A stretch of DNA of 64,000 bases from Pseudomonas furukawaii (GTDB lineage: Bacteria; Pseudomonadota; Gammaproteobacteria; Pseudomonadales; Pseudomonadaceae): assembly GCF_002355475.1 (NCBI RefSeq), contig NZ_AP014862.1, forward strand, positions 4,216,001 to 4,280,000, written 5' to 3'. A program made the translations under genes and the position numbers. This document shows positions 35,928 to 64,000 of the stretch, piece after piece (the stretch's first letter is position 1; every line of letters starts with the position of its first letter). Below the pieces are notes generated by a model, which saw only the letters and a program-made list of their open reading frames with translations, ran no database searches and had not been told where the DNA came from.

Positions 35928-35974
35928 ATCTGTGGGGTCTGCAGGGCGGAAGGTCCGCCGTGCGCTGGTTGCAC

Positions 35975-36160
35975 CAGGCCGGTCTCCGGGCTTGCGAGTG
36001 GAGCCTGGCTCCCCTGCCGCGCCTTCCCATGCGTGTGCACAGTGGCCGAATGCGGCTGTCGACTCGCCTACCGTTGCGGGGGCAGCGCCGGAATCTCCCA
36101 TGGGGGATGGACCGGCTTCCCTGTTTCACCCCTTCGACGCAAGGTCAAGGGGCACCTGAG
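35975..36160 (-). ncRNA. cobalamin riboswitch (aptamer) upstream of btuB-cob operon
   Basis: The minus strand carries all conserved blocks of the cobalamin riboswitch in order: AGGTGCCCC, AGGGAAGCCGGT, GCGCTGCCCCCGCAACGGTA, the B12-box element GCCACTG, GGGAAGGCG, and the closing AGCCCGGAGACCGGCC. It ends about 80 nt before the btuB start. When adenosylcobalamin is bound, expression of btuB and probably the following ten cob genes should fall. Confidence 0.96.
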
Positions 36161-36212
36161 GCAGGCGCGAAGGGTAGAGGGTCGTCGGGACAGCGTCAAT
36201 CGCACCCGCCGA

Positions 36213-50605: not shown

Positions 50606-51525
50606 AAAGCGGCATCACCCGCGCACAATTCCTTCGCCTCGGCGCCGGCGCGGCGCTGCTGGCCATGAGCCCCCTGAGCCTGGGCGCGGAAACCGCCGGG
50701 CAGCCGATACGCCGCCGCGCCATTCCCGCCAGCGGCGAGCCGTTGCCGGTGATCGGCGTCGGCACCTACCGGGGCTTCGACATCGCCGCCACCGACCGCG
50801 ACGCCTGGGCGGACTGCCGCCAGGTGCTGAACAGCCTTCTCGCCGCGGGCGGCTCGGTGATCGACAGCTCGCCGATGTACGGCCAGGCGGAGGAGACGGT
50901 GGGCGATCTGCTGGAAGCGATCGGCGCCCGCGACCGCGCCTTCGTCGCCACCAAGGTCTGGACCCGGGGCCGCGAGGACGGCATCCGCCAGATGCGCCGG
51001 TCCATGGAGCTACTGCGCAGCCCCCGTATCGACCTGATGCAGGTGCACAACCTGGTGGACTGGCGGGAGCACCTGAAAACCCTCCGCCAATGGAAGGAGG
51101 ACGGCAGCGTCCGCTACCTGGGCGTGACCCACTACACGGCCAGCGCCTACGACGAACTGGAGCGCGTGCTGCGCGCCGAGCCGCTGGACTTCCTGCAGAT
51201 CAACTACGCCCTGAACGACCGCGAAGCCGAGCGCCGCATCCTGCCGCTCGCCCGGGAGCGCGGTGTGGCGGTGCTGATCAACCGCCCCTTCGGTGGCGGC
51301 AACCTGCTGCGCGACCTCCTGCAAGCGCCCCTGCCGGGCTGGGCCGGCGAGTATGACTGCACGAGCTGGCCGCAACTGCTGCTGAAGTTCTGCCTGAGCC
51401 ACCCGGCGGTGACCTGCGTGATTCCCGGAACCGGCAACCCCCGCCACATGCTGGACAACCTCCAGGCCGGGCGCGGCAAGGAAGCGGACCCGGCGTTTCG
51501 CGAGCGCCTGCTCCAGAGGGTGTGA
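50602..51525 (+). CDS. aldo/keto reductase with N-terminal export-like segment
   Basis: A 307-residue NADPH-dependent reductase fold. The N-terminus (GITRAQFLRLGAGAALLAMS) looks like a signal of the Tat type but has TR where RR is expected, so export is uncertain. Catalytic candidates: Asp and Tyr in VIDSSPMYGQAEETVG, Lys in FVATKVW, His in MQVHNLVDW. The NADP-binding end is CVIPGTGNPRHMLDNL. It overlaps the upstream transporter gene by 4 bp. It ends 13 bp from the convergent MFS gene. Confidence 0.85.
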   Translation: MKSGITRAQFLRLGAGAALLAMSPLSLGAETAGQPIRRRAIPASGEPLPVIGVGTYRGFDIAATDRDAWADCRQVLNSLLAAGGSVIDSSPMYGQAEETVGDLLEAIGARDRAFVATKVWTRGREDGIRQMRRSMELLRSPRIDLMQVHNLVDWREHLKTLRQWKEDGSVRYLGVTHYTASAYDELERVLRAEPLDFLQINYALNDREAERRILPLARERGVAVLINRPFGGGNLLRDLLQAPLPGWAGEYDCTSWPQLLLKFCLSHPAVTCVIPGTGNPRHMLDNLQAGRGKEADPAFRERLLQRV

Positions 51526-51538
51526 GCCGCGACGCTCC

Positions 51539-52813
51539 TCAGAGATGTTCGCTGCGGGCGTTCACCTGGAGGTTGCGGCCGGCGCCAAGGCCGAAAGCCG
51601 TGGCCGCCAGGCTCACGCCGACGAAGATGAAGCCCACCGCGCTCCAGCCATGGGTCAGGTCGTGCACCACGCCCACCGCCAACGGGCCCATGGCCGCCAG
51701 GGTATAGCCCACGCCCTGGGCCATGCCGGACAGGTTGGCGGCCACGTGGGCATCCCGCGAACGCAGCACGATCAGCGCCAGGGCGATGCTGAAGGTGCCG
51801 CCCTGCCCCAGGCCGAGCACCACCGCCCAGCCCCAGATCCCGGACAAGGGCGCATAGAGCATGCCCAGCAGCCCGGCCAGGGTCAGCCCCATCACCAGCA
51901 CCACCGCCGGGCGCTGGTCGCGTCCCCGCGTGGCCAGCCAGGGGGCGCCGAGCGCACTGATGAGCTGGACCATCACCGAGCCGGACAGCACCAGCCCGGC
52001 ATCCACGGCCGAGAGGCCCCGGTCGATGAGGATCGACGGCAGCCAGCCGAACACGATGTACGCCAGGGACGACTGCAGGCCCATGTAGAGGGTCACCTGC
52101 CAGGCCAGCGGGTCGCGCCAGAGCCCGGTCACCCGATAGGCCTGGCGCCCGGCGTGCCCCGACTGCCGCGCCTGGGGCAGCCAGACCAATGCGGCGAGGA
52201 TGGCCGGCAACGCCCAGAAGGCCAGGGCCGGCTGCCAGGCGTGATCCAGGGCCTCGGCCAGGGGCACGGTGGCGCCAGCGGCCAGCGCCGCGCCCAGGCA
52301 GAGGGACATGGTGTAGACCCCGGTCATCAGCCCGGCGACATGGGGGAAGTCGCGCTTGACGATACCCGGCAGCAGCACCCCGATGATGCCGATGCTGGCG
52401 CCCGCCACCAGGCTGCCAAGGAACAGCCCCGCCACCGGGAACAGGCTGCGCAGCAGGATGCCGCCCGCCAGGGTGAGGAGGATCAGCAGCACCGTGCGCT
52501 CGCTGCCCAGGCGCCGCGCCAGCATGGGCGCCAGCGGCGCGAACAGGCCGAGACAGAGCACCGGCAAGGTGGTCAGCAACCCCGCACCGGACGCCGAGAG
52601 ACCGGTGGCCTCGCGCACCATGTTGAGCAAGGGGGCCAGGCTGGACAGCGCCGGACGCAGATTCAGGGCCACCATCACCAGGCCCGCCAGCAGCAGCCAG
52701 GCGCTGCCGCGGAAGGCCGGTGGCGCCGGCTCGTCATCGGCCTCGGCATCGATCAACAGCTCTTCCGGCGGGCAGGAAAGCGGGGTGTCATCCAGGGAAT
52801 TCGGGGCGTTCAT
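51539..52813 (-). CDS. MFS transporter, CynX/NimT-type
   Basis: A 424-residue major facilitator of the cyanate/2-nitroimidazole transporter group (CynX, NimT, YycB). The opening LNLRPALSSLAPLLNMVREA and the ATGLSASGAGLLTTLPVL block mark the family. Twelve helices are plausible. The N-terminus has an acidic cytoplasmic lead of about 40 residues (DDTPLSCPPEELLIDAEADD). ATG at 52813 is preferred, a GTG seven codons upstream is possible. The substrate is unknown. No cyanase gene is adjacent. Confidence 0.85.
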   Translation of the reverse strand: MNAPNSLDDTPLSCPPEELLIDAEADDEPAPPAFRGSAWLLLAGLVMVALNLRPALSSLAPLLNMVREATGLSASGAGLLTTLPVLCLGLFAPLAPMLARRLGSERTVLLILLTLAGGILLRSLFPVAGLFLGSLVAGASIGIIGVLLPGIVKRDFPHVAGLMTGVYTMSLCLGAALAAGATVPLAEALDHAWQPALAFWALPAILAALVWLPQARQSGHAGRQAYRVTGLWRDPLAWQVTLYMGLQSSLAYIVFGWLPSILIDRGLSAVDAGLVLSGSVMVQLISALGAPWLATRGRDQRPAVVLVMGLTLAGLLGMLYAPLSGIWGWAVVLGLGQGGTFSIALALIVLRSRDAHVAANLSGMAQGVGYTLAAMGPLAVGVVHDLTHGWSAVGFIFVGVSLAATAFGLGAGRNLQVNARSEHL

Positions 52814-53050
52814 GGCAAGGCAGCTCCAGGGCACTATCCACCAGGGAACGCTGTAGGGCGGGTGTGGACATGAGGGTCATCGAGTCATCCGATGAAATCA
52901 GGCGAAAAATGTTAGCTGGCTCACTATCTGCCCGCAACCCGGGCATCCTTGCGACCCAGGCAATAGTCATTATCTACGGGGATGATTTTTCCGGTCCCGG
53001 CCCCATTGGTAGCCTGCGCAGCATCAAGCCATCGATGCCCTGGGGGCGCC

Positions 53051-53293
53051 ATGAAGCACGTACCGATCCTTGCGCTGGCCGTAACGGCCCTGGTCCTGGC
53101 CGGCTGCGCCAGCCAGCCGGAACCCGAACCGCGCCCCTACACCGACGCCGAGGTGAAGCAGTTCGCCCTGGAAATGCTCAGCCGCGCCGGCCTGCCCTAC
53201 GAGGACTACGAGAAGGTGCGCCAGGCCATCCTCCATCCCAGGGTGCCCGAGGCGGGCAAGGACCTGCCCAGGCAGGCGCCTCGCCGGGGTTGA
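53051..53293 (+). CDS. small lipoprotein, unknown function
   Basis: An 80-residue predicted lipoprotein. The signal HVPILALAVTALVLAGCASQ has a lipobox with Cys22 near the start. The mature part is short and polar (EPEPRPYTDAEVKQFALEML), containing one amphipathic helix and a Pro/basic tail. The ATG at 53051 is chosen since it puts the signal at the N-terminus; the frame is open further upstream. I do not recognise the family. Confidence 0.7.
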   Translation: MKHVPILALAVTALVLAGCASQPEPEPRPYTDAEVKQFALEMLSRAGLPYEDYEKVRQAILHPRVPEAGKDLPRQAPRRG

Positions 53294-53370
53294 AGAAATG
53301 CCTGGCGCCCCGCTTCCCCCGGGACGCACCACGGCCAGACACCAAAACCCTTTGCGCACAGCCGCACGGC

Positions 53371-53991
53371 TCAGCTCGACGACGGCCGCCACAGCAGCAG
53401 CAAGCCGCCAAATCCCACCAGCAGCGTGCCGAAGGCACGATCGATCACGCCACGCACCGCCAGCAGCCGGGCGCGCACCGCGCCGGTGGAAAAGCACAGC
53501 CCCACCAGGCCGAACCAAGCCACATGGGCCAGGGCGATGAAGGCGCCATAGCCTGCCTGCACCTCCAGCGGCGTGTCCCGCTGCACCACCTGCATGAACA
53601 GGCTCACCACGAAGATCGACGTCTTGGGGTTCAGCGCATTGGTGAGAAACCCCATGCGCAGCGCGGCCAGGTCCGATTGCGGCGCCTCCTGCGGGGCGGT
53701 GTCCACAGCCTGCGCCGGCGCCCGCAGCAGGCTCACGCCCAGGTAGATGAGATAGGCGGCCCCCAGCAGCTTCAGCAGGTTGAACAGCCAGATCGACTCA
53801 CGCACCAGCAGCCCCAGGCCCCAGAGCGTGTAGCCGACATGGACGAACACCCCTACCCCCACCCCCAGGGCCGTGAGCACACCGGCACGGCGCGAGAGCA
53901 GCAGGCTGTTGCGCGTGACCATGGCGAAGTCCGGCCCCGGGCTGATCACGGCCAGCAGGGTGATGGTGATTACAGCTAGCAGTTCGGTCAT
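53371..53991 (-). CDS. LysE-family amino acid exporter
   Basis: A 206-residue exporter of the LysE/RhtB family. The N-terminus ITLLAVISPGPDFAMVTRN is the family signature. Six hydrophobic segments follow, including GVGVGVFVHVGYTLWGLGLL, and the FLTNALNPKTSIFVVSLF block is characteristic. It pumps out a basic or neutral amino acid or a homoserine-lactone-like compound; the substrate cannot be told. It is divergent from the LysR gene, its likely regulator, with a 67-bp gap. Confidence 0.92.
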   Translation of the reverse strand: MTELLAVITITLLAVISPGPDFAMVTRNSLLLSRRAGVLTALGVGVGVFVHVGYTLWGLGLLVRESIWLFNLLKLLGAAYLIYLGVSLLRAPAQAVDTAPQEAPQSDLAALRMGFLTNALNPKTSIFVVSLFMQVVQRDTPLEVQAGYGAFIALAHVAWFGLVGLCFSTGAVRARLLAVRGVIDRAFGTLLVGFGGLLLLWRPSSS

Positions 53992-54058
53992 GTCTTATCC
54001 TGTCCAGGAGGTGTAAGAATGCGCCTATCCTAGCGACACACCGCCACCGTGATTAACG

Positions 54059-54970
54059 ATGTCTTCTGACCATATCCGTGAATCCAGCTCACCGATTAGA
54101 CAGAGCCGCCTGCCCTCGCTGTTGGCCCTGCGCTGCTTCGAGGCCGCCGCGCGGCTGGAGAACTTCACCCGCGCCGCGGCGGAGCTGCACCTCACCCACG
54201 GCGCCGTGAGCCGAGCCGTGCGCCTGCTGGAGGACGACATCGGCCTGCCCCTGTTCGAGCGGCGCAACCGCCGCGTCCACCTCACCGATGCCGGGCGCCG
54301 ACTCGCCGCCGCCGTGGGCGAGGGCCTGCACCTGATGCGTGCGGCCGTGGACGAACTGCGCGCCAGCGTCAGGCAGCAACGGCGCTGGGTGGTGTCCTGC
54401 GAACCCACCCTGCTGATGCGCTGGCTGATTCCGCGCTGGCCGGTCTTCCAGCGCCACCACCCCGAACTGCAGGTCCACCTGGTCGCCGGCGGCGGCCCCT
54501 TCAGCTTCGACGCCGGCATCGACCTCGCCATCCGCCGCGACGACTTTCCCTGGCCGGCCCATTACCACGCAGAGCCGTTGTTCGCCGAACGGGTCGGGCC
54601 CGTCTGCCGCCCTGCCCTGGCCGCCGACTGGTTCGACGGCGACACCCTCGGCGCCAGTGCCCCGCGCCTGCACAGCCAGACCCGCCCCGGCGCCTGGAAC
54701 CACTGGGCCGGTCTGACGGGCCAGCACCTGCCGCCAGCGACGGAACAGCACTTCGAGCACTTCTACTTCAGCCTCCAGGCGGCCGTCGCCGGACTGGGCG
54801 TGGCCATCGGCCCCTGGCACCTGGTCCGCGACGACCTGGACAGTGGCCTGCTGGTGGCGCCCCAGGGTTTCATCGAAGACGGTTCCCGCTACTGCTTGCT
54901 GGCGCCCAGCGCCCCGGAGCCCGATAGCCCGCCGGCACGGCTGCTGGCGTGGCTGAGGGCACAGGCCTGA
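54059..54970 (+). CDS. LysR-family transcriptional regulator (GcvA-like)
   Basis: A 303-residue LysR regulator of the GcvA-like group: PSLLALRCFEAAARLENFTR, then HGAVSRAVRLLEDDIGLPL and FERRNRRVHLTDAGRRLAA form the DNA-binding part. The effector domain includes LRASVRQQRRWVVSCEPTLL and FDAGIDLAIRRDD. It is divergent from the LysE exporter gene and very probably controls it. Confidence 0.9.
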   Translation: MSSDHIRESSSPIRQSRLPSLLALRCFEAAARLENFTRAAAELHLTHGAVSRAVRLLEDDIGLPLFERRNRRVHLTDAGRRLAAAVGEGLHLMRAAVDELRASVRQQRRWVVSCEPTLLMRWLIPRWPVFQRHHPELQVHLVAGGGPFSFDAGIDLAIRRDDFPWPAHYHAEPLFAERVGPVCRPALAADWFDGDTLGASAPRLHSQTRPGAWNHWAGLTGQHLPPATEQHFEHFYFSLQAAVAGLGVAIGPWHLVRDDLDSGLLVAPQGFIEDGSRYCLLAPSAPEPDSPPARLLAWLRAQA

Positions 54971-55244
54971 CGGCACCGCGCCCAGGACACCGGAGTCCAG
55001 GCCCGCAACCCCGCTCCCGGAATGCATGCGGGCCACGACCCTGGCTTGCCCTTGCGCCTCGCCCTCCCTATCCTGCCCCGGCCACGGTCAATCCCGTGGA
55101 CGGGTTTGGCGACCCGGCTTAATAACGGGCGCGATTGCGCCGAACGGTGCATGCGAGAAGCGGCGTAGGCTTCTTGCAGGCCCCTTCACAACTGCAGTTT
55201 TCACTGCAGCGCTATATGGCAGATCGCGCGGGGAGATCCTCGTG

Positions 55245-55342
55245 ATCTGCCGGTTCCCGTTAGCCGGTTCGCCAACCCCGCGCGGTTTGCCACCCTCGTT
55301 TGGCGACGCAGGTGGCAACTCCCCAACCGATAACGGAGAACC
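55245..55342 (+). ncRNA. C4 antisense RNA-like leader upstream of an antirepressor gene
   Basis: The leader directly before the BRO-N antirepressor gene has two hairpins, GGTT-CGCC-AACC (55266-55277) and TTGCCACC/GGTGGCAA (55287-55294 with 55311-55318). Their loops are complementary over seven bases: TCGCCAA (55269-55275) with TTGGCGA (55300-55306). GGTTCCCGTTAGCCGGTT (55252-55269) can also pair imperfectly with AACCGATAACGGAGAACC (55325-55342), which contains the GGAG ribosome-binding site. The sequence and its place before an antirepressor gene recall the C4 antisense RNA of phages P1 and P7. Confidence 0.65.
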
Positions 55343-55345
55343 ACC

Positions 55346-55852
55346 ATGCATGACGCATACACCCCCATCGTTTTCCACCGACATTCCCGCCAGTTGCGCG
55401 CGGTGATGATCGACCACCGACCCTGGTTCTCGGGATACGACTTCGCCCGCCTCATCGCGGCGCCCCGCGCCCACCTGCTGGCCAGGCGACTGGTCGCTTT
55501 CCAGCGCCGCACGGTGCTGCTGCGGTACGACAGCGGAACCCTGGAGGAAATGGAGATGATCAGCGACCAGGGCGCCTATCACGCGCTGTTCCGCTTCGGG
55601 CATCCGGAGCATGGGCTGATCGGCCAGTGGCTCAGCGAAGAGGTGTTGCCCACCCTGCATGATCTTCACCGCGAACCCGACGCCAGCCCCCGGCGCGCCT
55701 TCATGACCTGGGCGGACCAGCGCGTGGGGGTGGTGCAGTGGCAGGGCGAACTATGGATCGCGCGACGGGACCTGCCGGTGTTCATGGCAGCCAATGACGA
55801 CCCGGCGCTCGGCCTCGAACCCAGCTGGAAGCGACTGCCCGCCCAGGAGTGA
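55346..55852 (+). CDS. BRO-N domain phage antirepressor-like protein, isolated
   Basis: A 168-residue protein with an N-terminal BRO-N domain, as in phage antirepressors. Recognisable stretches: FHRHSRQLRAVMIDHRPWF, FSGYDFARLIAAP, RTVLLRYDSG, MISDQGAYHALFRFGHPEH, and GLIGQWLSEEVLPTLHD. The second part (ASPRRAFMTWADQRVGVVQW, then ELWIARRDLPVF) looks different and may be a small effector region. No other phage gene lies near. The leader resembles C4 RNA, which in phages keeps the antirepressor off. Whether this chromosomal copy acts on prophages or on host genes is unknown. Confidence 0.8.
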   Translation: MHDAYTPIVFHRHSRQLRAVMIDHRPWFSGYDFARLIAAPRAHLLARRLVAFQRRTVLLRYDSGTLEEMEMISDQGAYHALFRFGHPEHGLIGQWLSEEVLPTLHDLHREPDASPRRAFMTWADQRVGVVQWQGELWIARRDLPVFMAANDDPALGLEPSWKRLPAQE

Positions 55853-55865
55853 TGGAACACCAAGC

Positions 55866-56340
55866 CGCCGCCGGCTTCCCTCTCCCCCGCCCTCTCCCGG
55901 AGGGAGAGGGAGCGGTCCGTGCAATGCCGGCTGCACCGCTCCGTAGGGTGGATGGCGCTTTTCCATCCACCGGCCCTGTCAAGTGATGAAACACCGAGCC
56001 GCAGCCGGCTTCCCTCTCCCCCGCCCTCTCCCGAAGGGAGAGGGGGCGGTCCGTGCAATGCCGGCTGCACTGCTCCGGGTGGATGGCCCTTTTCCATCCA
56101 CTGGCCCTGTCAAGTGATGAAACACCGAGCCGCAGCCGGCTTCCCTCTCCCCCGCCCTCTCCCAGAGGGAGAGGGGGCGGTCCGTGCAATGCCTGCTGCA
56201 CCGCCCCGTAGGGTGGATGGCGCTTTTCCATCCACCGGCCCTGTCAAGTGATGAAACACCGAGGCGCCGCCGGCTTCCCTCTCCCCCGCCCTCTCCCAGA
56301 GGGAGAGGGGGCGGTCCGTGCAATGCCGGCTGCACCGCGC
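55866..56340. repeat. tandem array, about 3.5 copies of a 131-134 bp unit
   Basis: Units begin at about 55873, 56007, 56138 and 56272 with GGCTTCCCTCTCCC. Each contains a hairpin of CCCGCCCTCTCCC type with GAGGGAGAGGG, then GGTCCGTGCAATGCC, then GTAGGGTGGATGGCGC or a near variant with a CCATCCACCGGCCCTGTC partner. The fourth copy is incomplete. No gene is seen in it; the repetitive minus-strand frames are artefacts. Confidence 0.88.
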
Positions 56341-56344
56341 CCCT

Positions 56345-56406
56345 GTAGGAGCGAGCTTGCTCGCGAACAAGGCCCGCGCCATTCCTCGGCGAGCCGGCTC
56401 CTACGG
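56345..56406. repeat. REPIN: pair of inverted REP elements
   Basis: GTAGGAGCGAGCTTGCTCGC (56345-56364) and, inverted, GGCGAGCCGGCTCCTACGG (56388-56406) enclose a short spacer. The second arm resembles the single REP elements at 1396 and 6492. Confidence 0.8.
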
Positions 56407-56436
56407 AGCCAGGCTGCGCGCGTGACCGTCGGCCCG

Positions 56437-57066
56437 CTACCGGGGCTTGCGCCACAGGCTGGCCAGCCAGGGCTGCTGCTCCCGGGGCAGGCCAACGGGA
56501 CGGTAGTAGTGCTCCAGCGCCTCGAAGCCGGCGGCCTCCAGCAGGGCCTTCCAGCTCTCGTAGTCATGCCAGGCGCCGTAGCGATTGCCGCTCCAGCCCT
56601 CGTCGTTCTGCCCCCGAGGATTGGAGCTGAAGAGCACGCCGCCCGGCTTCAGCGCGTCCCGCAGCTCGGCGAGGACCCGGGGCAGCTCCTGGCGCGGGAC
56701 ATGGAACAGGGAGGCGTTGGCGAAGATGCCGTCGAAGTGTTCGGCCGGCAGGTCGAGGGCGAGGAAGTTCTGCTGCCACACCTCGCAACCGGAGTCGGCG
56801 CGGGCCATGGCGACGAAGCGGGCGGTGCCGTCCAGGCCGATGGCGCGGTGACCCAGGCGGGCGAAGGCCGCCAGGTCGCGGCCGGGGCCGCAACCGAAGT
56901 CGAGGATGACGAACGGCGCCTCGCCACGGATATGCCGCAACAGCGCCGCGATGTTCTGGCTCACGTCATGGTCGCGGGTGCCCTCGCGAAACTCGTCGGC
57001 GTTGCGCTCGTAGTCGTCGAGGGTGGTGGCGGTGATGCTGGCGAGGTCGTCGGGACGCAGGGGCAT
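56437..57066 (-). CDS. class I SAM-dependent methyltransferase
   Basis: A 209-residue methyltransferase. SAM motif I is VILDFGCGPGRDLAAFARLG near residue 53, followed by AIGLDGTARFVAMARAD, then FDGIFANASLFHVPRQELPR and LKPGGVLFSSNPRGQNDEGW. It resembles the type-11/25 small-molecule methyltransferases common in Pseudomonas, whose substrate is unknown. It lies directly next to the repeat array and is divergent from potE. Confidence 0.88.
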   Translation of the reverse strand: MPLRPDDLASITATTLDDYERNADEFREGTRDHDVSQNIAALLRHIRGEAPFVILDFGCGPGRDLAAFARLGHRAIGLDGTARFVAMARADSGCEVWQQNFLALDLPAEHFDGIFANASLFHVPRQELPRVLAELRDALKPGGVLFSSNPRGQNDEGWSGNRYGAWHDYESWKALLEAAGFEALEHYYRPVGLPREQQPWLASLWRKPR

Positions 57067-57176
57067 GGCGGGCTCGAAGGAATCTGGACGGAAAACTGAA
57101 TTCTACGCTCTCGGCGGCGGCAACTTTCCAGGACGCCGCCTATCTTTCTGGAACCCACATCTGCGCGGGACTCGTC

Positions 57177-58526
57177 ATGGCCGACACCGGAAAGAAAATG
57201 ACCCTCACGGGCCTCACCACCCTGGTGGCGGTGAACATGATGGGCTCGGGCATCATCATGCTGCCGTCGAGCATGGCCCAGCTGGGCGCCATCTCGCTGC
57301 TGTCCTGGGGCATCACCGCCATCGGTTCCATGGCCATCGCCTACTGCTTCGCCCAATGCGGCATCTTCTGCCCCCGCTCCGGCGGCATGTCGGCGTACAC
57401 CGAGGAGGCCCACGGCAAGTCGGCCTTCTTCCTCTGTTCCTACCTCTACTTCCTGTCCCTGGCCATCGGCAACGTGGCCATCGCCATCTCCGCCGTGGGC
57501 TACCTCACGCCCTTCCTGCCCTGGCTGGGGACCGGCGCCATCCCCTTGTTCATCGGCACCCTGGGGCTGATCTGGCTCACCACCCTGGCCAACTTCGGCG
57601 GGCCCAAGGTCACCGGGCACATCGGTTCGATCACCGTCTGGGGCGTGATCATCCCGGTGGCGGGCCTGTCGCTGATCGGCTGGTTCTGGTTCGACCCCCA
57701 GGTGTTCGAGGACGCCTGGAACCCCAATGGCATCGCCACCAGTGACGCCATCACCCAGAGCATTCCGCTGACCCTCTGGGCCTTCCTCGGCATGGAATCC
57801 GCCGCACAGAACTCCGATGCCGTGGAAAACCCCAAGCGCAACGTGCCGCTCGCCTGCCTGCTGGGCACCCTGGGTGCGGCGGTGGTCTACGTGCTTTCCA
57901 CCTCGGTGATCATGGGCATAGTGCCCAACGCCGAGCTGGCCAACTCCAGCGCACCCTTCGCCTTCGTCTACGCCCAGATGTTCGATCCCCTGGTGGGTAA
58001 CATCATCATGGGGCTGGCGGTGATGGCCTGCGTCGGCTCGCTGCTGGGCTGGCAGTTCACCCTGGCCCAGACCGCCAAGGTCACCGCCGAGCAACGGATG
58101 TTTCCCGGTTTCTTCGCCAAGGTCACCCTGCTCGGCGCCCCGATCGCTGGACTGCTGGCCAACGCCCTGCTGCAGAGCGGCATGGCCATTTCCACCATCT
58201 CCCCCAACGCCTCGGAGCAGTTCGGCAAGCTGGTGAGCCTGGCGGCGGTGACCAATATCATTCCCTACATCACGGCCCTGTCCGCGCTGCTGGTGATCAT
58301 GCAGAAGGCCGGGGTGACCGGCTTCCCCCACCACCGCAACGTCGCCGCCCTGCTGGTGGCCATGGCCTACAGCTTCTACGCGCTCTACGCCTCCGGCACC
58401 GAGGCGGTGTTCGGCGGCATGCTGGTCACCGCCGTGGGCTACCTGATGTTCGGCTACATCGCCGAGCGCTTCCTCGAAGAGCGCACCGCGCGAAAGCGCG
58501 AACTCGGCCTGGAGGACCAGCCATGA
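57177..58526 (+). CDS. potE: putrescine/ornithine antiporter-type APC transporter
   Basis: A 449-residue APC-superfamily transporter closely resembling E. coli PotE: VNMMGSGIIMLPSSMAQLG at the N-terminus, ANFGGPKVTGHIGSITVWGV, GWFWFDPQVFEDAWNPNG, TLWAFLGMESAAQNSDAVEN and VTNIIPYITALSALLVI all have close counterparts. It should exchange putrescine for ornithine or take up putrescine. No ornithine decarboxylase gene (speF) is adjacent; instead its stop overlaps the start of an amino-acid-binding protein gene by 4 bp. Confidence 0.9.
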   Translation: MADTGKKMTLTGLTTLVAVNMMGSGIIMLPSSMAQLGAISLLSWGITAIGSMAIAYCFAQCGIFCPRSGGMSAYTEEAHGKSAFFLCSYLYFLSLAIGNVAIAISAVGYLTPFLPWLGTGAIPLFIGTLGLIWLTTLANFGGPKVTGHIGSITVWGVIIPVAGLSLIGWFWFDPQVFEDAWNPNGIATSDAITQSIPLTLWAFLGMESAAQNSDAVENPKRNVPLACLLGTLGAAVVYVLSTSVIMGIVPNAELANSSAPFAFVYAQMFDPLVGNIIMGLAVMACVGSLLGWQFTLAQTAKVTAEQRMFPGFFAKVTLLGAPIAGLLANALLQSGMAISTISPNASEQFGKLVSLAAVTNIIPYITALSALLVIMQKAGVTGFPHHRNVAALLVAMAYSFYALYASGTEAVFGGMLVTAVGYLMFGYIAERFLEERTARKRELGLEDQP

Positions 58527-59419
58527 ACGCCGCCCCCCTGCGCTGGCTGCCCCTGCTGCTCGCCGCACTGCTGCCGTCCCTGGCCGTCGCCCAGACCCTG
58601 GACCGCGTCCGCGCCAGCGGCACCCTCACCCTCGGCTACCTGCCGGACCAGCCGCCCTTCAGCGTCAGCGAAGGCGATGGCGCCTCCGGCTACGGCGTCG
58701 ACCTCTGCCAGAAGGTGGCCGATCAGTTGCGCACCCAACCCGGCCTGGCGCAACTGCGCACGCGCTTCGTCCCGCTGGCGCCGGAGAAGGCCCTGGATGT
58801 GGTGCGCGAAGGCGGCGTCGACCTGCTCTGCAGCCCGGTCGTGGAAACCCTGAAGCGCCGGGAAACCCTGGCCTTTTCCCTGCCGGTGTACACGGCCGGC
58901 GTCGGCGTGGTGCTGCGCCAGGACGCCTCCCCGCACCTGGTCCGCGTGCTCAAGGGCGAGGAGTCGCCCAGCGGCCCCACCTGGCGCGCCACGGTCAACC
59001 GGGGCCTGACCGCCGCCCATTTCGTGGTACAGGGCGGCACCGTGGTGGAAAGCTGGGCGCGGGAACGGCTGCGCCTGCTCAAGGTACTGGTGACCCTGGA
59101 CACCGTTCCCAGCGCACTGGACGGGGTGCAGAAAGTCGCCAAGGGCGAGGCGGATGCCTTCTTCGCCGACCAGATGATGCTGCGCAGCCTGGTGCAGCGT
59201 GACGCGTCCAACGCCGGGCTGATGGTGCTGGACCGGCGTTTCGAGTTCGAGCCCGTCTCCCTGGCGATGGCCCGGGGCGATGAGGACTTCCGCCTGCAGG
59301 TGGACACCGCGCTGAGCCGCTTCTACCGCTCCGGCGACATGGTGCCCTTGTATACGCGCTACTTCGGGCCGCCCGGCGATCTGGACCAGACCCTGTTCAA
59401 GGTGTATTCGCGCCGCTGA
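58523..59419 (+). CDS. orphan amino-acid-type periplasmic binding protein coupled to potE
   Basis: A 298-residue exported binding protein of the glutamate/amino-acid family (SBP family 3). The signal is WLPLLLAALLPSLAVAQ; the fold shows SGTLTLGYLPDQPPFSVSEG, GGVDLLCSPVVETLKRRETL and VAKGEADAFFADQMMLRSLV. No ABC permease or ATPase lies nearby. Its ATG overlaps the potE stop (ATGA), so both proteins are made together. It may present a substrate to the transporter or have a sensing role; both are inference. Confidence 0.88.
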   Translation: MNAAPLRWLPLLLAALLPSLAVAQTLDRVRASGTLTLGYLPDQPPFSVSEGDGASGYGVDLCQKVADQLRTQPGLAQLRTRFVPLAPEKALDVVREGGVDLLCSPVVETLKRRETLAFSLPVYTAGVGVVLRQDASPHLVRVLKGEESPSGPTWRATVNRGLTAAHFVVQGGTVVESWARERLRLLKVLVTLDTVPSALDGVQKVAKGEADAFFADQMMLRSLVQRDASNAGLMVLDRRFEFEPVSLAMARGDEDFRLQVDTALSRFYRSGDMVPLYTRYFGPPGDLDQTLFKVYSRR

Positions 59420-59505
59420 GGGAATTCGACGGCAAGAGTCGGGATGCGGGCGCACGCCAGCCCGCATACTCTCTGCCATGAACGAACCGCAAGCGGACCA
59501 CCGCC

Positions 59506-60570
59506 ATGAAATCCTCCGCCAGGAAAGCCGTCGAACAGGACCCGCGCTGGGCCGCCGTGCAGGCCCGGGACCCCGCCGCCGACCGGCACTTCGTCTACGC
59601 CGTGAAAACCACCGGCATCTACTGCCGTCCCAGCAGCCCCACCCGCCTGCCGCGTCCGGAGAACGTCGAGTTCTTCGACAGCGCCGCGGAGGCCGAGGCC
59701 GCCGGTTACCGTCCCAGCCGCCGCGCCGCCGCCGACATGACCAGCCTGGCGGCCCAGCACGCCGCCCTGGTGGAGGCCGCCTGCCGGCACATCGAGCGCG
59801 CCGAGGACGCCCCGGGCCTGGAAGCCCTGGCGGAGGCGGCGGGCCTCAGCGCCTCCCACTTCCACCGGGTGTTCAAGGCCGTCACCGGCCTCACCCCCAA
59901 GGCCTACGCCCGCGCCCAGCGCGCCCGCAAGGTGCGTGAACGCCTGCGCCCGGGCGCCTCGGTGACCGAAGCGATCCTCGATGCCGGCTTCAACTCCAAC
60001 AGCCGCTTCTATGCCGACTCCGCCCAGGTGCTGGGCATGAAGCCCGCCGACTACCGCGCCGGCGGCGCCAACAACGAGATCCGCTTCGCCCTGGGCGAAT
60101 GCTCCCTGGGGCATTTCCTGGTGGCCCAGAGCGAGATCGGCGTCTGCGCCCTGCTCCTGGGCGACGACCCTGAAGCCCTGCTGCGGGACCTGCAGGACAA
60201 GTTCCCCCAGGCCCGGCTGATAGGCGGCGACGGCGACTTCGAACGACTGGTGGCGCGCGTGGTGGGTTTTATCGAAGCCCCCAACCTCGGCCTGGACCTG
60301 CCCCTGGACGTGCGCGGCACCGCCTTCCAGGAGCGGGTCTGGCAGGCGCTGCGGGAGATTCCACCGGGCAGCACCGCCAGCTACGCGGAAATCGCCCAGC
60401 GCATCGGCTCGCCCCGCGCGGTTCGCGCCGTCGCCCAGGCCTGCGCGGCCAACAGCATCGCCGTGGCCATTCCCTGCCACCGGGTGGTCCGCAGCGACGG
60501 CGCCCTCTCCGGCTATCGCTGGGGGGTGGAGCGCAAGCGCCGGCTGCTGGACCGCGAGGCCGAGGGATGA
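59506..60570 (+). CDS. ada: Ada-type methylated-DNA repair/regulator with degenerate zinc site
   Basis: A 354-residue Ada homologue: N-terminal metal-binding domain, AraC-type HTH (HIERAEDAPGLEALAEAAGL then SASHFHRVFKAVTG) and C-terminal O6-methylguanine methyltransferase with acceptor Cys324 in IPCHRVVRSDG. In E. coli Ada the zinc ligands are Cys38, 42, 69 and 72. Here, at identical spacing, they are Cys40, Ser44, Ser71 and Ala74: only the first remains (YCRPSS, YRPSRRA). The methylphosphotriester sensing and zinc binding should be impaired, while repair by Cys324 looks intact. Confidence 0.9.
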   Translation: MKSSARKAVEQDPRWAAVQARDPAADRHFVYAVKTTGIYCRPSSPTRLPRPENVEFFDSAAEAEAAGYRPSRRAAADMTSLAAQHAALVEAACRHIERAEDAPGLEALAEAAGLSASHFHRVFKAVTGLTPKAYARAQRARKVRERLRPGASVTEAILDAGFNSNSRFYADSAQVLGMKPADYRAGGANNEIRFALGECSLGHFLVAQSEIGVCALLLGDDPEALLRDLQDKFPQARLIGGDGDFERLVARVVGFIEAPNLGLDLPLDVRGTAFQERVWQALREIPPGSTASYAEIAQRIGSPRAVRAVAQACAANSIAVAIPCHRVVRSDGALSGYRWGVERKRRLLDREAEG

Positions 60571-60704
60571 AGCGGCCGGGTGCCGGTGGCGAACCCCAGG
60601 CCCTGGATACCGGGCTCCGGGGCCGGGTCGACAAGTTCGCGCTCCTTGGCTAGAACTCCAATCAGCCCCCGGCCTCTCGGGGACGCCTGGCAGGAAGCTC
60701 GATC

Positions 60705-61898
60705 GTGACGCTGCAACCCCTGGAAACCCTTCTGCTGGCCACCCTGGCCCTGCTCCTCGGCCGCCTGGTGAACCGGCTCGTCCCGTTGCTCTCGCGCTAC
60801 AACATTCCCGACCCCATCACCGGCGGGCTGTTGGTTTCCATCGGCCTGGCCCTGGCCGGAGCCCTGGGCGACCTGCACCTGGAGTTCGACAACACCGCCA
60901 AACCGGTCCTGCTGCTGGCTTTCTTCTCCGCCGTGGGCCTGTCGGCGGACCTGGCCATGCTGCGGCACGGTGGCAAGCGCCTGTTGCTGTTCGTGATCGT
61001 CCTGGCGCCCTTCCTGGTGTTGCAGAACCTGCTTGGCATCCTCATCGCAAAGGGCATGGACATGCATCCGCTGATGGGGCTGGTGGGCGGAACCATCACC
61101 CTGGTGGGCGGGCATGGCACCGGAGCGGCCTATGCCGACCGCTTCGCCGAGGTGCACAACCTGCAATCCATCATGGAGCTCTCCATGACCTCCGCCACCC
61201 TGGGCCTGGTGGCGGGCGGCATCATCGGCGGTCCGGTCGCCCAGTGGCTGATCCGCCGTCACCGGCTGGAAGCGGGCGTCCAGCGCGGAACCGCGCAATC
61301 GGAGGGTGGCGCGACACAGGCCGAGCCGGTGGGTTCGGCCAACTTCCTCACGGTGCTGTCGGCGACCCTGGCCGCGCTGGTGATCGGCCAGGTCCTGGCG
61401 GGCCTGTTCAGCGACAGCCCCATCACCCTGCCCAGCTTCCTCTGGTGCCTGCTGATGGGCGTGGCGATCCGCAACCTGCTGCCCCTGGCACGGGTGCGAC
61501 TCAATGACGGCGCCATCGACCTGCTGGCCTCGGTCACCCTGTCGCTGTTCCTGGTGATCACCATGATGGCGCTGAACCTCGCCCATGTGGCGACGGTGGC
61601 CGGTCCGCTGCTGCTGATACTGGTGGCGCAATCCATCCTGGCGATGGTCTACGCCGCCATGGTGGTGTTCCGCTTCACCGGTCGCGACTACGAATCGGTG
61701 GTGCTCTCGGCGGCCTTCTGCGGCTTTTCCACGGGCGCGACGGCGACCGCCATCGCCAATATGCAGGCCATCGCCCGCAAGTACGGACCGGCGCCGGAGG
61801 CCTTCATCGTCGCGCCGCTGGTGGGTGCCTTCCTCATCGACCTGCTGAACGCCCTGGTGCTGACGGGCTTCCTGTCGCTGCCGGGAATGGGAGGTTGA
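60705..61898 (+). CDS. gltS: sodium/glutamate symporter
   Basis: A 397-residue GltS-family symporter. Family signatures: YNIPDPITGGLLVSIGLALA near residue 31, SAVGLSADLAMLRHGGKRLL, and MGLVGGTITLVGGHGTGAAYA (substrate region); a second repeat later contains FSTGATATAIANMQAI, which mirrors the first. About ten membrane helices. It starts with GTG after AGGAAG. Its stop lies 2 bp before the start of the TAXI-type lipoprotein gene, so the two are closely linked. Confidence 0.93.
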   Translation: MTLQPLETLLLATLALLLGRLVNRLVPLLSRYNIPDPITGGLLVSIGLALAGALGDLHLEFDNTAKPVLLLAFFSAVGLSADLAMLRHGGKRLLLFVIVLAPFLVLQNLLGILIAKGMDMHPLMGLVGGTITLVGGHGTGAAYADRFAEVHNLQSIMELSMTSATLGLVAGGIIGGPVAQWLIRRHRLEAGVQRGTAQSEGGATQAEPVGSANFLTVLSATLAALVIGQVLAGLFSDSPITLPSFLWCLLMGVAIRNLLPLARVRLNDGAIDLLASVTLSLFLVITMMALNLAHVATVAGPLLLILVAQSILAMVYAAMVVFRFTGRDYESVVLSAAFCGFSTGATATAIANMQAIARKYGPAPEAFIVAPLVGAFLIDLLNALVLTGFLSLPGMGG

Positions 61899-61900
61899 GC

Positions 61901-63379
61901 ATGCTCCGTGTTCTGCTGATGGGCCTGCTGGCCCTGGCCCTGGCGGCCTGTTCCCGGGGCCCCGATCCCGCCCGCCTGGAAGCCGAGGTGCAGCAGCGCC
62001 TGGACCTGGCCTTCGGCGCCGGCAGCATCCGCCTGGCGCAACTGGATCGGCGCGGCTCGGCCAGCGACGCCAATGCCCCGGGTGACGAAGAGCGCCTGGT
62101 GGTCTATTTCGACGCCAGCCTGCGCCTGGAGCGGGACCTGGATTTCGGTTCCTGGGACTCTCCCGGGGTCGCCAGCCTGGTGAGCGCGCTGGGCGCCGGT
62201 CCCAGGGGCTTGTCCGGTATCCGCGCGGGGGGCAATCGCGCCGGCGACACACTGAAGGCCCACGGCAGCCTGATCTACCGGCGCTCCGATTCGGGCTGGA
62301 CGGCCGTGGTGCCCCAGGGCTTCAAGCCCCCGCCGGCGCCGGGCAGCCTGGAGCCCGCCGCCAGCCAGCCCCGCGAACAGCTGGTGGCGGCCATCAGCAC
62401 CGCGCTCAAGCTTTCGCCTGGCGGCACCGGGGTGAAGGAACGCGCCATCATCTCCGACGAGCTCGGCCGCGCCCTGGGCAATATCCAGGGCCGCCTGAGT
62501 CGGCTCCAGCAGGGCTATCCCCTCGCGGGCGGCCCGGTGTCCGGGCAGTACGCGCGGCTGGCCCAGGCCATGGCCAGCCTGCTGCGGCCCAGGGGCGTGA
62601 ACCTGACGCCGCTGACCACCGAGGGCGGCCTGGACAACCTGCGCCGGCTCCGGGACGGCGATGCGGTGGCGGCCTTTTCCCAGAGCGACATGGCCCACCT
62701 GGCACTGAGCGGCAGCGGTCCCTTCCGCGACGAAGGCCCCTATGGCGGCCTGCGGGTCCTGGCCAGCCTGTATCCGGAGCCGGTGCACGTGCTGGTGCGG
62801 GGCGATGGCCCGATCGAGAACATGGCCGGGCTGAAGGGCAAGCGGGTCAACCTCGGCCTGCCCGGCTCCGCCTCGCGGGACACGGCGCTTGCGGTGCTGG
62901 CCGCCCACGGCTTGAAAACGACCGACCTGGCAGAAGTCGCCAGCCTCGACCTGCAGCTGGCCCTCACCGCCATGCGTGACGGCCAGCTGGACGCCACGCT
63001 GCAGGTCATCGGCGAACCGGCCGACAGCATTCGCGCGGCCAGCGAAGCCATGCCCCTGCGCCTGCTGCCCCTGGACGAACAGGCTATCCGCAGCCTGGAA
63101 GCCACCCGCCCGGGCACCTTCGCCAGCCGTATCGCCGTGGGCAGCTACCCCAACCAGGACCGATCGACGCCGACCCTCGCCGTCAGCGCCCTGCTGCTCG
63201 GGGACGAGCGGCTCAGCGTCGGCGAGGCGGAGCACCTGGTGCGCGAACTGTTCACTCCGGGGCTGGACTGGCTGGGCGCCGGCAGCATCCAGGGCGAACA
63301 GCTGTCCAGGGCCAACGCGCGCCGGGGCACGGCCATCCCCATGCACGAGGGCGCCCTGCAGGCGTTGCAGGCGCCCTAG
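61901..63379 (+). CDS. TAXI-family substrate-binding lipoprotein linked to gltS
   Basis: A 492-residue lipoprotein. The signal VLLMGLLALALAACSRG has a lipobox with Cys17. About 200 residues of unrecognised N-terminal region follow, then a TAXI-type (TRAP-associated) solute-binding domain: LRPRGVNLTPLTTEGGLDNL, AVAAFSQSDMAHLAL, LKGKRVNLGLPGSASRDTAL and DLQLALTAMRDGQLDATLQV. TAXI proteins usually serve TRAP transporters, but no TRAP membrane gene is near. ATG at 61901 has GGGAGG upstream; its distance of 2 bp from gltS implies co-expression. Confidence 0.85.
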   Translation: MLRVLLMGLLALALAACSRGPDPARLEAEVQQRLDLAFGAGSIRLAQLDRRGSASDANAPGDEERLVVYFDASLRLERDLDFGSWDSPGVASLVSALGAGPRGLSGIRAGGNRAGDTLKAHGSLIYRRSDSGWTAVVPQGFKPPPAPGSLEPAASQPREQLVAAISTALKLSPGGTGVKERAIISDELGRALGNIQGRLSRLQQGYPLAGGPVSGQYARLAQAMASLLRPRGVNLTPLTTEGGLDNLRRLRDGDAVAAFSQSDMAHLALSGSGPFRDEGPYGGLRVLASLYPEPVHVLVRGDGPIENMAGLKGKRVNLGLPGSASRDTALAVLAAHGLKTTDLAEVASLDLQLALTAMRDGQLDATLQVIGEPADSIRAASEAMPLRLLPLDEQAIRSLEATRPGTFASRIAVGSYPNQDRSTPTLAVSALLLGDERLSVGEAEHLVRELFTPGLDWLGAGSIQGEQLSRANARRGTAIPMHEGALQALQAP

Positions 63380-63383
63380 TCCG

Positions 63384-64000
63384 CTAGCGGATGTAGTCGC
63401 TCTCCATCACATCCCCGTAAGCCCTGACGAAGGCCTTCCAGTCTTCGTCCGGCATGGGTTTGTGGTGCTGCTTGAAATACTCGAAATCGTGCCTGGACGC
63501 GCTGTGGGCGGTCATCCGGTGTTCCGCCTGGGCCAGTCCCAGCAGGGCGATGTCCACCTTGGGATCACGCCCCTCGATCACCCGCAGGAACAGGTTGTTC
63601 GGGCTGAGCCGGCCATGTTCCCACCCGGCCCGATGCAGTCGGCCCAGGGTATTGGCCAGTTGCTGGATCACCCGCTGGCGGAGTTCCACGGCGTGGGGCC
63701 GGGCGTACCAGTCCTCCAGGCTTTCGTACCCGTCCAGGGCCTCGGTCACCAGCAGGGCCTGGGACTCGCCTTCGACCTTGCGGGCGCCGCCGAACACCAC
63801 CCGGGGCACGCCGATGCCGAGGCGCGCCAGGGCCTGCATCGCCTGCATCTCGTGGAGGAGCGTCGGTTGTCCCAGGGGATGGGTCAGGTCGCGGTGGAAG
63901 TGATTGACCTGGCGCTTGCTGTAGAGCAGGCGTCCGTCCGGGGTATGCAGGCGCTGGATGCCACTCTCGCCGGTCGGTGACGGGCCCTGGGGGTCGAACC
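63384..64000 (-). CDS. inaA: InaA-type lipopolysaccharide-kinase family protein (partial, 5' end outside window)
   Basis: The last 205 or so residues of a small kinase-fold protein of the InaA/LPS kinase family. The frame is open through the window end. Visible are GRLLYSKRQVNHFHRDLTHP, LLVTEALDGYESLEDWYA, the HRD-like catalytic loop LGRLHRAGWEHGRLSPNNLF, and the metal site in DPKVDIALLGL. The catalytic Asp of HxD is Gly/Arg-flanked here (WEHGRLSPNN), common in this family. InaA is induced by weak acids in E. coli. It converges on the TAXI lipoprotein gene. Confidence 0.82.
   Translation of the reverse strand, partial: FDPQGPSPTGESGIQRLHTPDGRLLYSKRQVNHFHRDLTHPLGQPTLLHEMQAMQALARLGIGVPRVVFGGARKVEGESQALLVTEALDGYESLEDWYARPHAVELRQRVIQQLANTLGRLHRAGWEHGRLSPNNLFLRVIEGRDPKVDIALLGLAQAEHRMTAHSASRHDFEYFKQHHKPMPDEDWKAFVRAYGDVMESDYIR

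Follow-up and report, generated by a model that had tools for sequence, protein, structure and literature searches.

The C4 antisense RNA is known mainly as an immunity RNA of phages, and in phages P1 and P7 it precedes the icd-ant operon. According to the accessible parts of two sources, the C4 RNA of these phages is excised by RNase P and blocks translation by means of a' and b', and heteroimmunity arises from small changes in the loops (PMC5320573, PMC12197685). A listing from 2010 already gave both C4 and c4-a1b1 for Proteobacteria and phages, as far as the accessible text of that paper goes (PMC2864571). The Pseudomonas modules described here resemble C4 of P1 and P7 in the RNA families (RF01695 and RF03163), the three-stem fold, the a' and b' loops, the presence of targets on both sides and the location of b2 at the ribosome binding site, but they differ in being chromosomal, in occurring in up to 25 copies per genome with copy-specific addresses, and in having one short Bro-N gene directly behind C4. 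Many C4-like RNAs per genome and variable loops are also features of the 'Group 1' C4-like sRNAs of A. baumannii, where 21 were reported from one genome in 2016 and the RNAs were found to be expressed and processed, but these were regarded as free sRNAs, to which the accessible part of the paper assigns no targets, whereas in Pseudomonas the own message is the likely target (PMC5320573). The succession of a short upstream RNA, a processed RNA and an antirepressor-like gene is shared with the IsrK - STnc1160 - anrP locus of the Salmonella prophage Gifsy-1, but that locus is prophage-borne and single, and IsrK is described in the accessible text as both activator and messenger (PMC4825925); the a1/b1 region of our locus is weakly similar to isrK (29.5 bits, cut-off 50). 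No report of self-addressed chromosomal C4 families, or of C4 before QslA, was found in the searched literature, which included few subscription journals.

The locus is located in a stretch of 64,000 nucleotides from Pseudomonas furukawaii (the window), and all of its parts are on the plus strand. The whole module constitutes 55045..55852, with similarity to copies elsewhere and in other species from 55045 to about 55840. It starts with a probable σ70 promoter (55046..55074), identified by eye in the alignment of copies, with TTGCCC at 55046-55051 and TATCCT at 55069-55074 spaced by 17 nucleotides; the promoter is weak by consensus, and a strict scan gave no promoter at the 5' end of the module. 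A c4-a1b1 element (RF03163) is found at 55068..55120 with 48.7 bits against a cut-off of 46.7, and its hairpin contains the a1 heptamer TTGGCGA (55106..55112), the complement of a', while b1, TAACGGG at 55123..55129, is complementary to the b' core. The C4 RNA (RF01695) extends over 55212..55297, and the Rfam model that the original prediction had proposed as a check on the leader gives 74.4 bits here, with a cut-off of 45. The b' core CCCGTTA (55256..55262) is located in the loop of the second C4 hairpin and a', TCGCCAA (55269..55275), in the single-stranded C4 junction. Downstream there is a2, TTGGCGA at 55300..55306, in a hairpin 3' of C4, followed by b2 (55331..55338), where TAACGG at 55331-55336 overlaps the Shine-Dalgarno GGAG at 55335-55338, and by the Bro-N-like gene (P0001) of 168 amino acids at 55346..55852. 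Pairing extends over 7 nt with each of a1, a2 and b1, and over 6 nt with b2. The C4 part (55212-55297) folds with -47.2 kcal/mol and a z-score of -5.55, the separate hairpin 3' of it (55286-55348) with -20.1 kcal/mol and a z-score of -3.14, and a GG is located 5' of the C4 closing stem. With a score above the gathering cut-off, covariation in the stems, and targets both upstream and at the downstream ribosome binding site, 55212-55297 is a genuine C4 antisense RNA.

The original prediction had placed a C4-like leader at 55245-55342 on the basis of two complementarities, and both were found where it had put them: TCGCCAA at 55269-55275 and TTGGCGA at 55300-55306 are exact reverse complements of each other, and the imperfect 18-nt complement between 55252-55269 and 55325-55342 has 12 of 18 positions paired without gaps (by eye), with a core CCGTTA/TAACGG over the Shine-Dalgarno GGAG. 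The heptamers had been assigned to the loops of two hairpins, which is right for 55300-55306 in that it is in a hairpin, but 55269-55275 is the a' junction of C4 and no hairpin loop. Since C4 is found at 55212-55297 and c4-a1b1 at 55068-55120, the predicted interval includes the downstream targets together with a 3' portion of C4, but misses the 5' part from 55212 and a1/b1 at 55068-55120. Directly 3' of the Bro-N-like gene there is a tandem array (55848-56338, period 134, 3.7 copies), which shows no apparent connection with the C4 module. An ordinary cobalamin riboswitch (103.9 bits) is located on the minus strand of the window at 35960-36174.

The module had also been thought to be lone, which it is not: the P. 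furukawaii genome (6.24 Mb) has 25 C4 matches over the Rfam cut-off, and C4 is present in all 18 searched genomes of the genus, with 3 to 25 copies each. In the family, at least one C4 was found in 123 of 198 sampled genomes by strict filters with 21 candidates scored per genome. According to a motif rule, a Bro-N-type gene comes next after 17 of the 25 own copies. Most own copies adjoin ordinary chromosomal genes such as urease, transporters and regulators, whereas copies 2937493 and 2950707 are apparently within one prophage (both by eye, from protein starts). No other phage gene had been expected near the window locus, and by eye none was recognised in the list of open reading frames for 51000-64000, with ordinary synteny in relatives. 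When the window locus was compared in 17 sibling genomes, ten lacked the module and had 0.1-1.7 kb between the small gene and the methyltransferase that flank it, genome G013 had a 131-bp remnant consisting of promoter and a1/b1, three had 4-7 kb without module similarity between the flank genes, and three were uninformative. When the 25 own copies were compared with 42 copies from three relatives, eight had a flank in common, on the same side and strand, with at least one of the 42, and only own copy 4018898 shared both flanks. The similarity between copies begins just 5' of the promoter and mostly stops near the stop codon, with longer similarity in a few recent duplicates. The C4 modules are chromosomal, and they move in evolutionary time. 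IS110 was considered as the mover and rejected; a likely IS110-type transposase (by eye) is found 3' of copies 4482152 and 2524112, and therefore looks like a later insertion. In L011 and L015 the likely IS110-type transposase (by eye) is located directly behind two Bro-N copies, in a stretch with 95% identity over 2.1 kb, and the two C4 addresses differ.

In the three C4 stems of the 25 own copies, 90.3% of the cells are paired, and 71 cells are doubly changed compared to 21.1 in shuffles; 17 of the 27 pairs have changed on both sides, and all five measures lie above those of 500 shuffles. The loops show a different kind of covariation. The number of 6-mers of the own C4s that are complementary to the targets of the same copy is on average 5.12 upstream and 4.20 downstream, against 1.21 and 0.51, respectively, for the targets of other copies, and the sums were never reached in 20,000 permutations. 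With 67 modules from four genomes the C4 loop region gives 4.99 upstream and 3.99 downstream for the own targets, against 1.30 and 0.56 for those of other modules in the same genome, and the totals of 334 and 267 compare with maxima of 154 and 94 in 5000 within-genome permutations. As controls, the 5' half of C4 gives 121 against the upstream targets, a slight excess (permuted mean 99.7, maximum 141), and 32 against the downstream targets (permuted mean 38.4), and distant flanks, used in place of the targets, gave 47 (permuted mean 45.9) and 30 (permuted mean 32.5). Specificity was measured by k-mer complementarity in place of duplex energies, which separated own and foreign C4 less cleanly (-35.4 and -26.8 kcal/mol upstream, -27.0 and -21.5 kcal/mol downstream), probably because the stem bases dominate them.

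Ten genomes have 153 C4 modules by our count, and 124 of these were used for a comparison of addresses. In 92 of the 124 the a heptamer matches at 7/7 upstream and at least 6/7 downstream, with 15 different heptamers and the register chosen among three. At a loose level of 6 nt in a and 6 nt in b, 111/124 modules match themselves, and 166 of 1660 ordered pairs from the same genome cross-match; the corresponding figures for the own genome are 22/25 and 45/600. The match is 6 nt or less downstream in four own copies (4018898, 5375797, 1858849 and 523921) and 5 nt or less upstream in two (4482152 and 4475780). The address of a C4 consists of two parts, a' and b', which are complementary to the a1/b1 and a2/b2 of the same module, and nearly all addresses are copy-specific. 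The leader does not vary freely beside a conserved gene; it changes fast, but in concert at three sites. Together with the Rfam matches and the stem covariation, this three-way address covariation strongly supports a C4-like antisense control of the Bro-N-type gene, as had been suggested for the window.

The product of the window gene scores 20 bits against Pfam Bro-N, below the cut-off of 25.6, and matches the anti-repressor families of PHROGs (best Ant, E 1.9e-7). When nine other Bro-N-like proteins linked to C4 or HTH at loci of the same family were scanned, most exceeded the Bro-N cut-off. The window protein may be an antirepressor. Its best 80 of 83 relatives correspond to 79 loci, 75 of which are titled Pseudomonas; a C4 over the cut-off is found just upstream of the gene in 51 of these 79 loci and is absent at that cut-off in 28. 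Viral contigs gave three loci with relatives, the best at 45% identity. Among 50,697 phage records five have a relative, and among 72,556 plasmid records eight, always below 60% identity. The family is chromosomal and nearly absent from phage and plasmid collections. For ten pairs of recent paralogues dN/dS is 0.08-0.51, and for these reasons a domesticated module, one of the possibilities raised in the original prediction, is favoured over a phage remnant.

C4 also precedes other genes. A leader search in plasmids found a P. aeruginosa record (L491:3027-3619) where the gene behind the leader is annotated as the LasR-specific antiactivator QslA. The leader has a1/b1 and C4 with Rfam scores of 66.0 and 64.8 bits, respectively, and the protein has matches in Pfam QslA and in the solved chain 4ng2 (E 2.4e-66). 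The sequence AGAAACGGAG, located 5' of the start at the ribosome binding site, is complementary to the b' loop over 8 nt, and the b1 match is only partial. As to QslA of the P. aeruginosa chromosome, no near-identical copy was found in the sampled genomes of the family, and the P. aeruginosa evidence is therefore one plasmid record with an apr region. The QslA family was sampled with 20 loci, one each from 20 genomes (55 of 298 genomes matched), and 18 of the 20 have a C4 over the cut-off upstream on the strand of the gene. Each of these 18 has an a' that fits both a1 and a2, and in 17 the match between b' and b2 is 6 nt or longer; nine have an 89-aa gene ahead of QslA. The P. furukawaii genome has its QslA locus behind C4 copy 2369231 (Pfam QslA 148 bits). 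Several types of other small proteins follow C4 as well; those scanned have no Pfam family above the cut-off, and a comparison of one type C protein with solved structures gave no meaningful match. In P. aeruginosa phage vB_Pae_CF3a (L490:2366-2906) there is a1/b1, a terminator-like stretch with a T-run, a C4 of 86.4 bits and matching a2/b2, followed by an 88-aa gene and a Rha-type gene, and the RNA is unannotated in the record. Tandem C4 pairs before one Bro-N gene are found in L217 (1583-1668 and 1864-1949), G017:C1:5504468/5504753 and G008:C1:1090002/1090283, with different addresses where these were read.

Loci without C4 were found in two forms. One clade has no C4 at the cut-off; palindromic sequences are found 5' of its Bro-N gene and, in most of the loci inspected, a divergent small gene as well (e.g. 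upstream of position 2001 in L221, L223, L224, L226, L229, L234 and L239). Among five such small genes tested two have HTH_3 over the Pfam cut-off, one has weak HTH matches and two have none. In L186, L216, L218, L230 and L233 the Bro-N gene has, by eye, a promoter and a1/b1, the latter scoring above the cut-off in two of the five, but no C4 that reaches its cut-off; these genes are possible targets for the C4 of another module.

Portable self-silencing C4 leaders with copy-specific addresses, which normally keep their own gene off, are very probably the best explanation of these loci. A single promoter would give a transcript with a1/b1, C4, a2/b2 and the Bro-N gene, and C4 would be excised from it, by RNase P if P1 and P7 are a guide, and then act on its own message. 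The a' junction should pair with a2 and the b' loop with b2, which would cover the Shine-Dalgarno sequence and leave the gene normally silent. As the address (a, b) is written three times in each transcript and changes in concert, each copy would be expected to silence itself, and the machine of P1 and P7 appears to have been kept in Pseudomonas. The CI RNA of satellite phage P4 acts by transcription termination, and its sequence is presumably unrelated to that of C4. It is similar in that, with seqA and seqC, the processed RNA pairs with sites on both sides of itself, according to the accessible text (PMC4825925), and by analogy with seqA the pairing with the upstream a1/b1 is probably a second checkpoint on transcription or folding. 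The cassette seems to be portable beyond phages, placed as it is before a dispersed Bro-N family, QslA antiactivators and several other small proteins. Promoter, excision, translational repression, the role of a1/b1 and the antirepressor activity of the Bro-N proteins are what we infer from sequence patterns and from the phage systems, and the same holds for the reason why addresses should be unique.

Seventy-six of the 124 modules were classed as Bro-N-type by motif; three or more Bro-N-like copies (G013_2199119, G005_2011892 and G009_1713641 among them) escaped this rule. Among these 76, from ten genomes, the whole address is common to 0/329 within-genome pairs and 72/2521 between-genome pairs. 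With shuffled genome labels the mean is 8.3 shared within-genome pairs (P 0.0001). A looser criterion, a 6-nt overlap in a, merged TTGACAG with TTGACGA and was replaced; it gave 0/329 within and 83/2521 between genomes. Three within-genome pairs have b in common, and a differs in all three. When the proteins of 70 of the 76 modules were compared, 35 pairs were more than 85% identical, 22 of them within one genome and all 22 with different addresses, and the address is common to three between-genome pairs. Nine recent pairs of the same genome show 46 differences in 81 sites of the b' loop and 107 in 697 sites elsewhere in C4, and with the dN/dS values given above this means that addresses turn over quickly under a conserved protein. 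Pairs from different species with the same address have proteins of quite different subtype (64 pairs with identities of 0.34-0.91 and a mean of 0.63), which makes exchange or convergence likely for the addresses that recur between species. The unshared addresses among Bro-N-type copies of the same genome suggest that selection favours mutually independent modules, or that no others survive.

One reason for such exclusion might be addiction, with a harmful Bro-N protein and C4 as its RNA antidote, the copies persisting in the manner of type I toxin-antitoxin loci; we find this conceivable and rather doubtful. To our knowledge Bro-N is a DNA-binding type of domain and not a known toxin, and toxicity of the protein is hypothetical. 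Addresses would then be unique because a copy covered by the address of another can be lost freely, and the lack of any common address in 329 within-genome pairs is as expected. The clade in which C4 is missing and a divergent small gene is present (HTH_3 in 2/5) also looks as if tight control must persist. The likeness to type I families includes dispersed paralogues, each with a copy-specific antisense RNA that masks translation, but C4 comes from the same strand and transcript as its gene, which means that loss of the locus removes both, and its protein is Bro-N-like instead of the small hydrophobic toxin of those families as the accessible part of the paper describes them (PMC2701414).

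The address may instead mark an orthologous lineage that descends vertically and is present once per genome without any exclusion, which we regard as unlikely. Addresses do recur between species, as orthologues would, and 29 of the 153 modules of the ten genomes were left out of the sample. However, among between-genome pairs the address is shared by only 6/42 flank-homologous pairs and also by 66/2479 pairs without flank homology. The result stands when the flank-homologous pairs are dropped (shuffled mean 7.6, never 0 in 20,000 permutations), and also in the four genomes with flanks of about 4.9 kb, where sharing is 0/241 within and 16/662 between genomes.

The chromosomal C4s could also be an immunity repertoire that silences the antirepressor operons of incoming phages with the same address, a role proposed for the A. 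baumannii C4-like RNAs in the accessible part of that paper (PMC5320573), and unique addresses would maximise the coverage. Viral contigs do have C4s of the same a classes, in 114 contexts with a2 nearby, 80 of them distinct, but just 4 of these 80 agree with a module of the ten genomes in a and in 8 nt or more of the loop, a weak test with a viral set of two a classes from all hosts, and C4 stays together with its downstream gene, making an immunity repertoire improbable. Decayed prophages, each copy being the leftover of a phage immunity region without present function, are the least probable source. In their favour, C4 is a phage RNA, a close C4 is found in P. aeruginosa phages (23/50,697 phage records match the leader, none over 80% of it, best E 2e-21), two own copies are apparently in one prophage and own copy 4475780 looks degraded. 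Against them, the gene is under purifying selection, the address changes are concerted in most copies, protein relatives are found in just 5 of the same phage records at less than 60% identity, the limits of the module are promoter and stop codon, and no phage gene that would place the window locus in a prophage immunity region was recognised around it by eye.

For self-silencing leaders the address can be read from the sequence, and with the own message as likely target self-silencing, specificity and cross-talk are therefore directly testable in dozens of natural variants. If the unique addresses are selected, the modules would constitute an orthogonal antisense system of natural origin and a clear example of diversification among cis-encoded RNAs following duplication. 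With a C4 leader in front of QslA, a much-studied quorum-sensing circuit would gain a layer of RNA control. The wider reading, that Pseudomonas chromosomes have an addressable RNA silencing code for up to 25 genes, with mutually exclusive addresses that change fast and in concert, which has been recruited to host regulation, that of QslA included, and for which a DNA-binding repressor can be substituted, is in our judgement evenly balanced between true and false, and if true it would be an incompatibility rule written in RNA loops.
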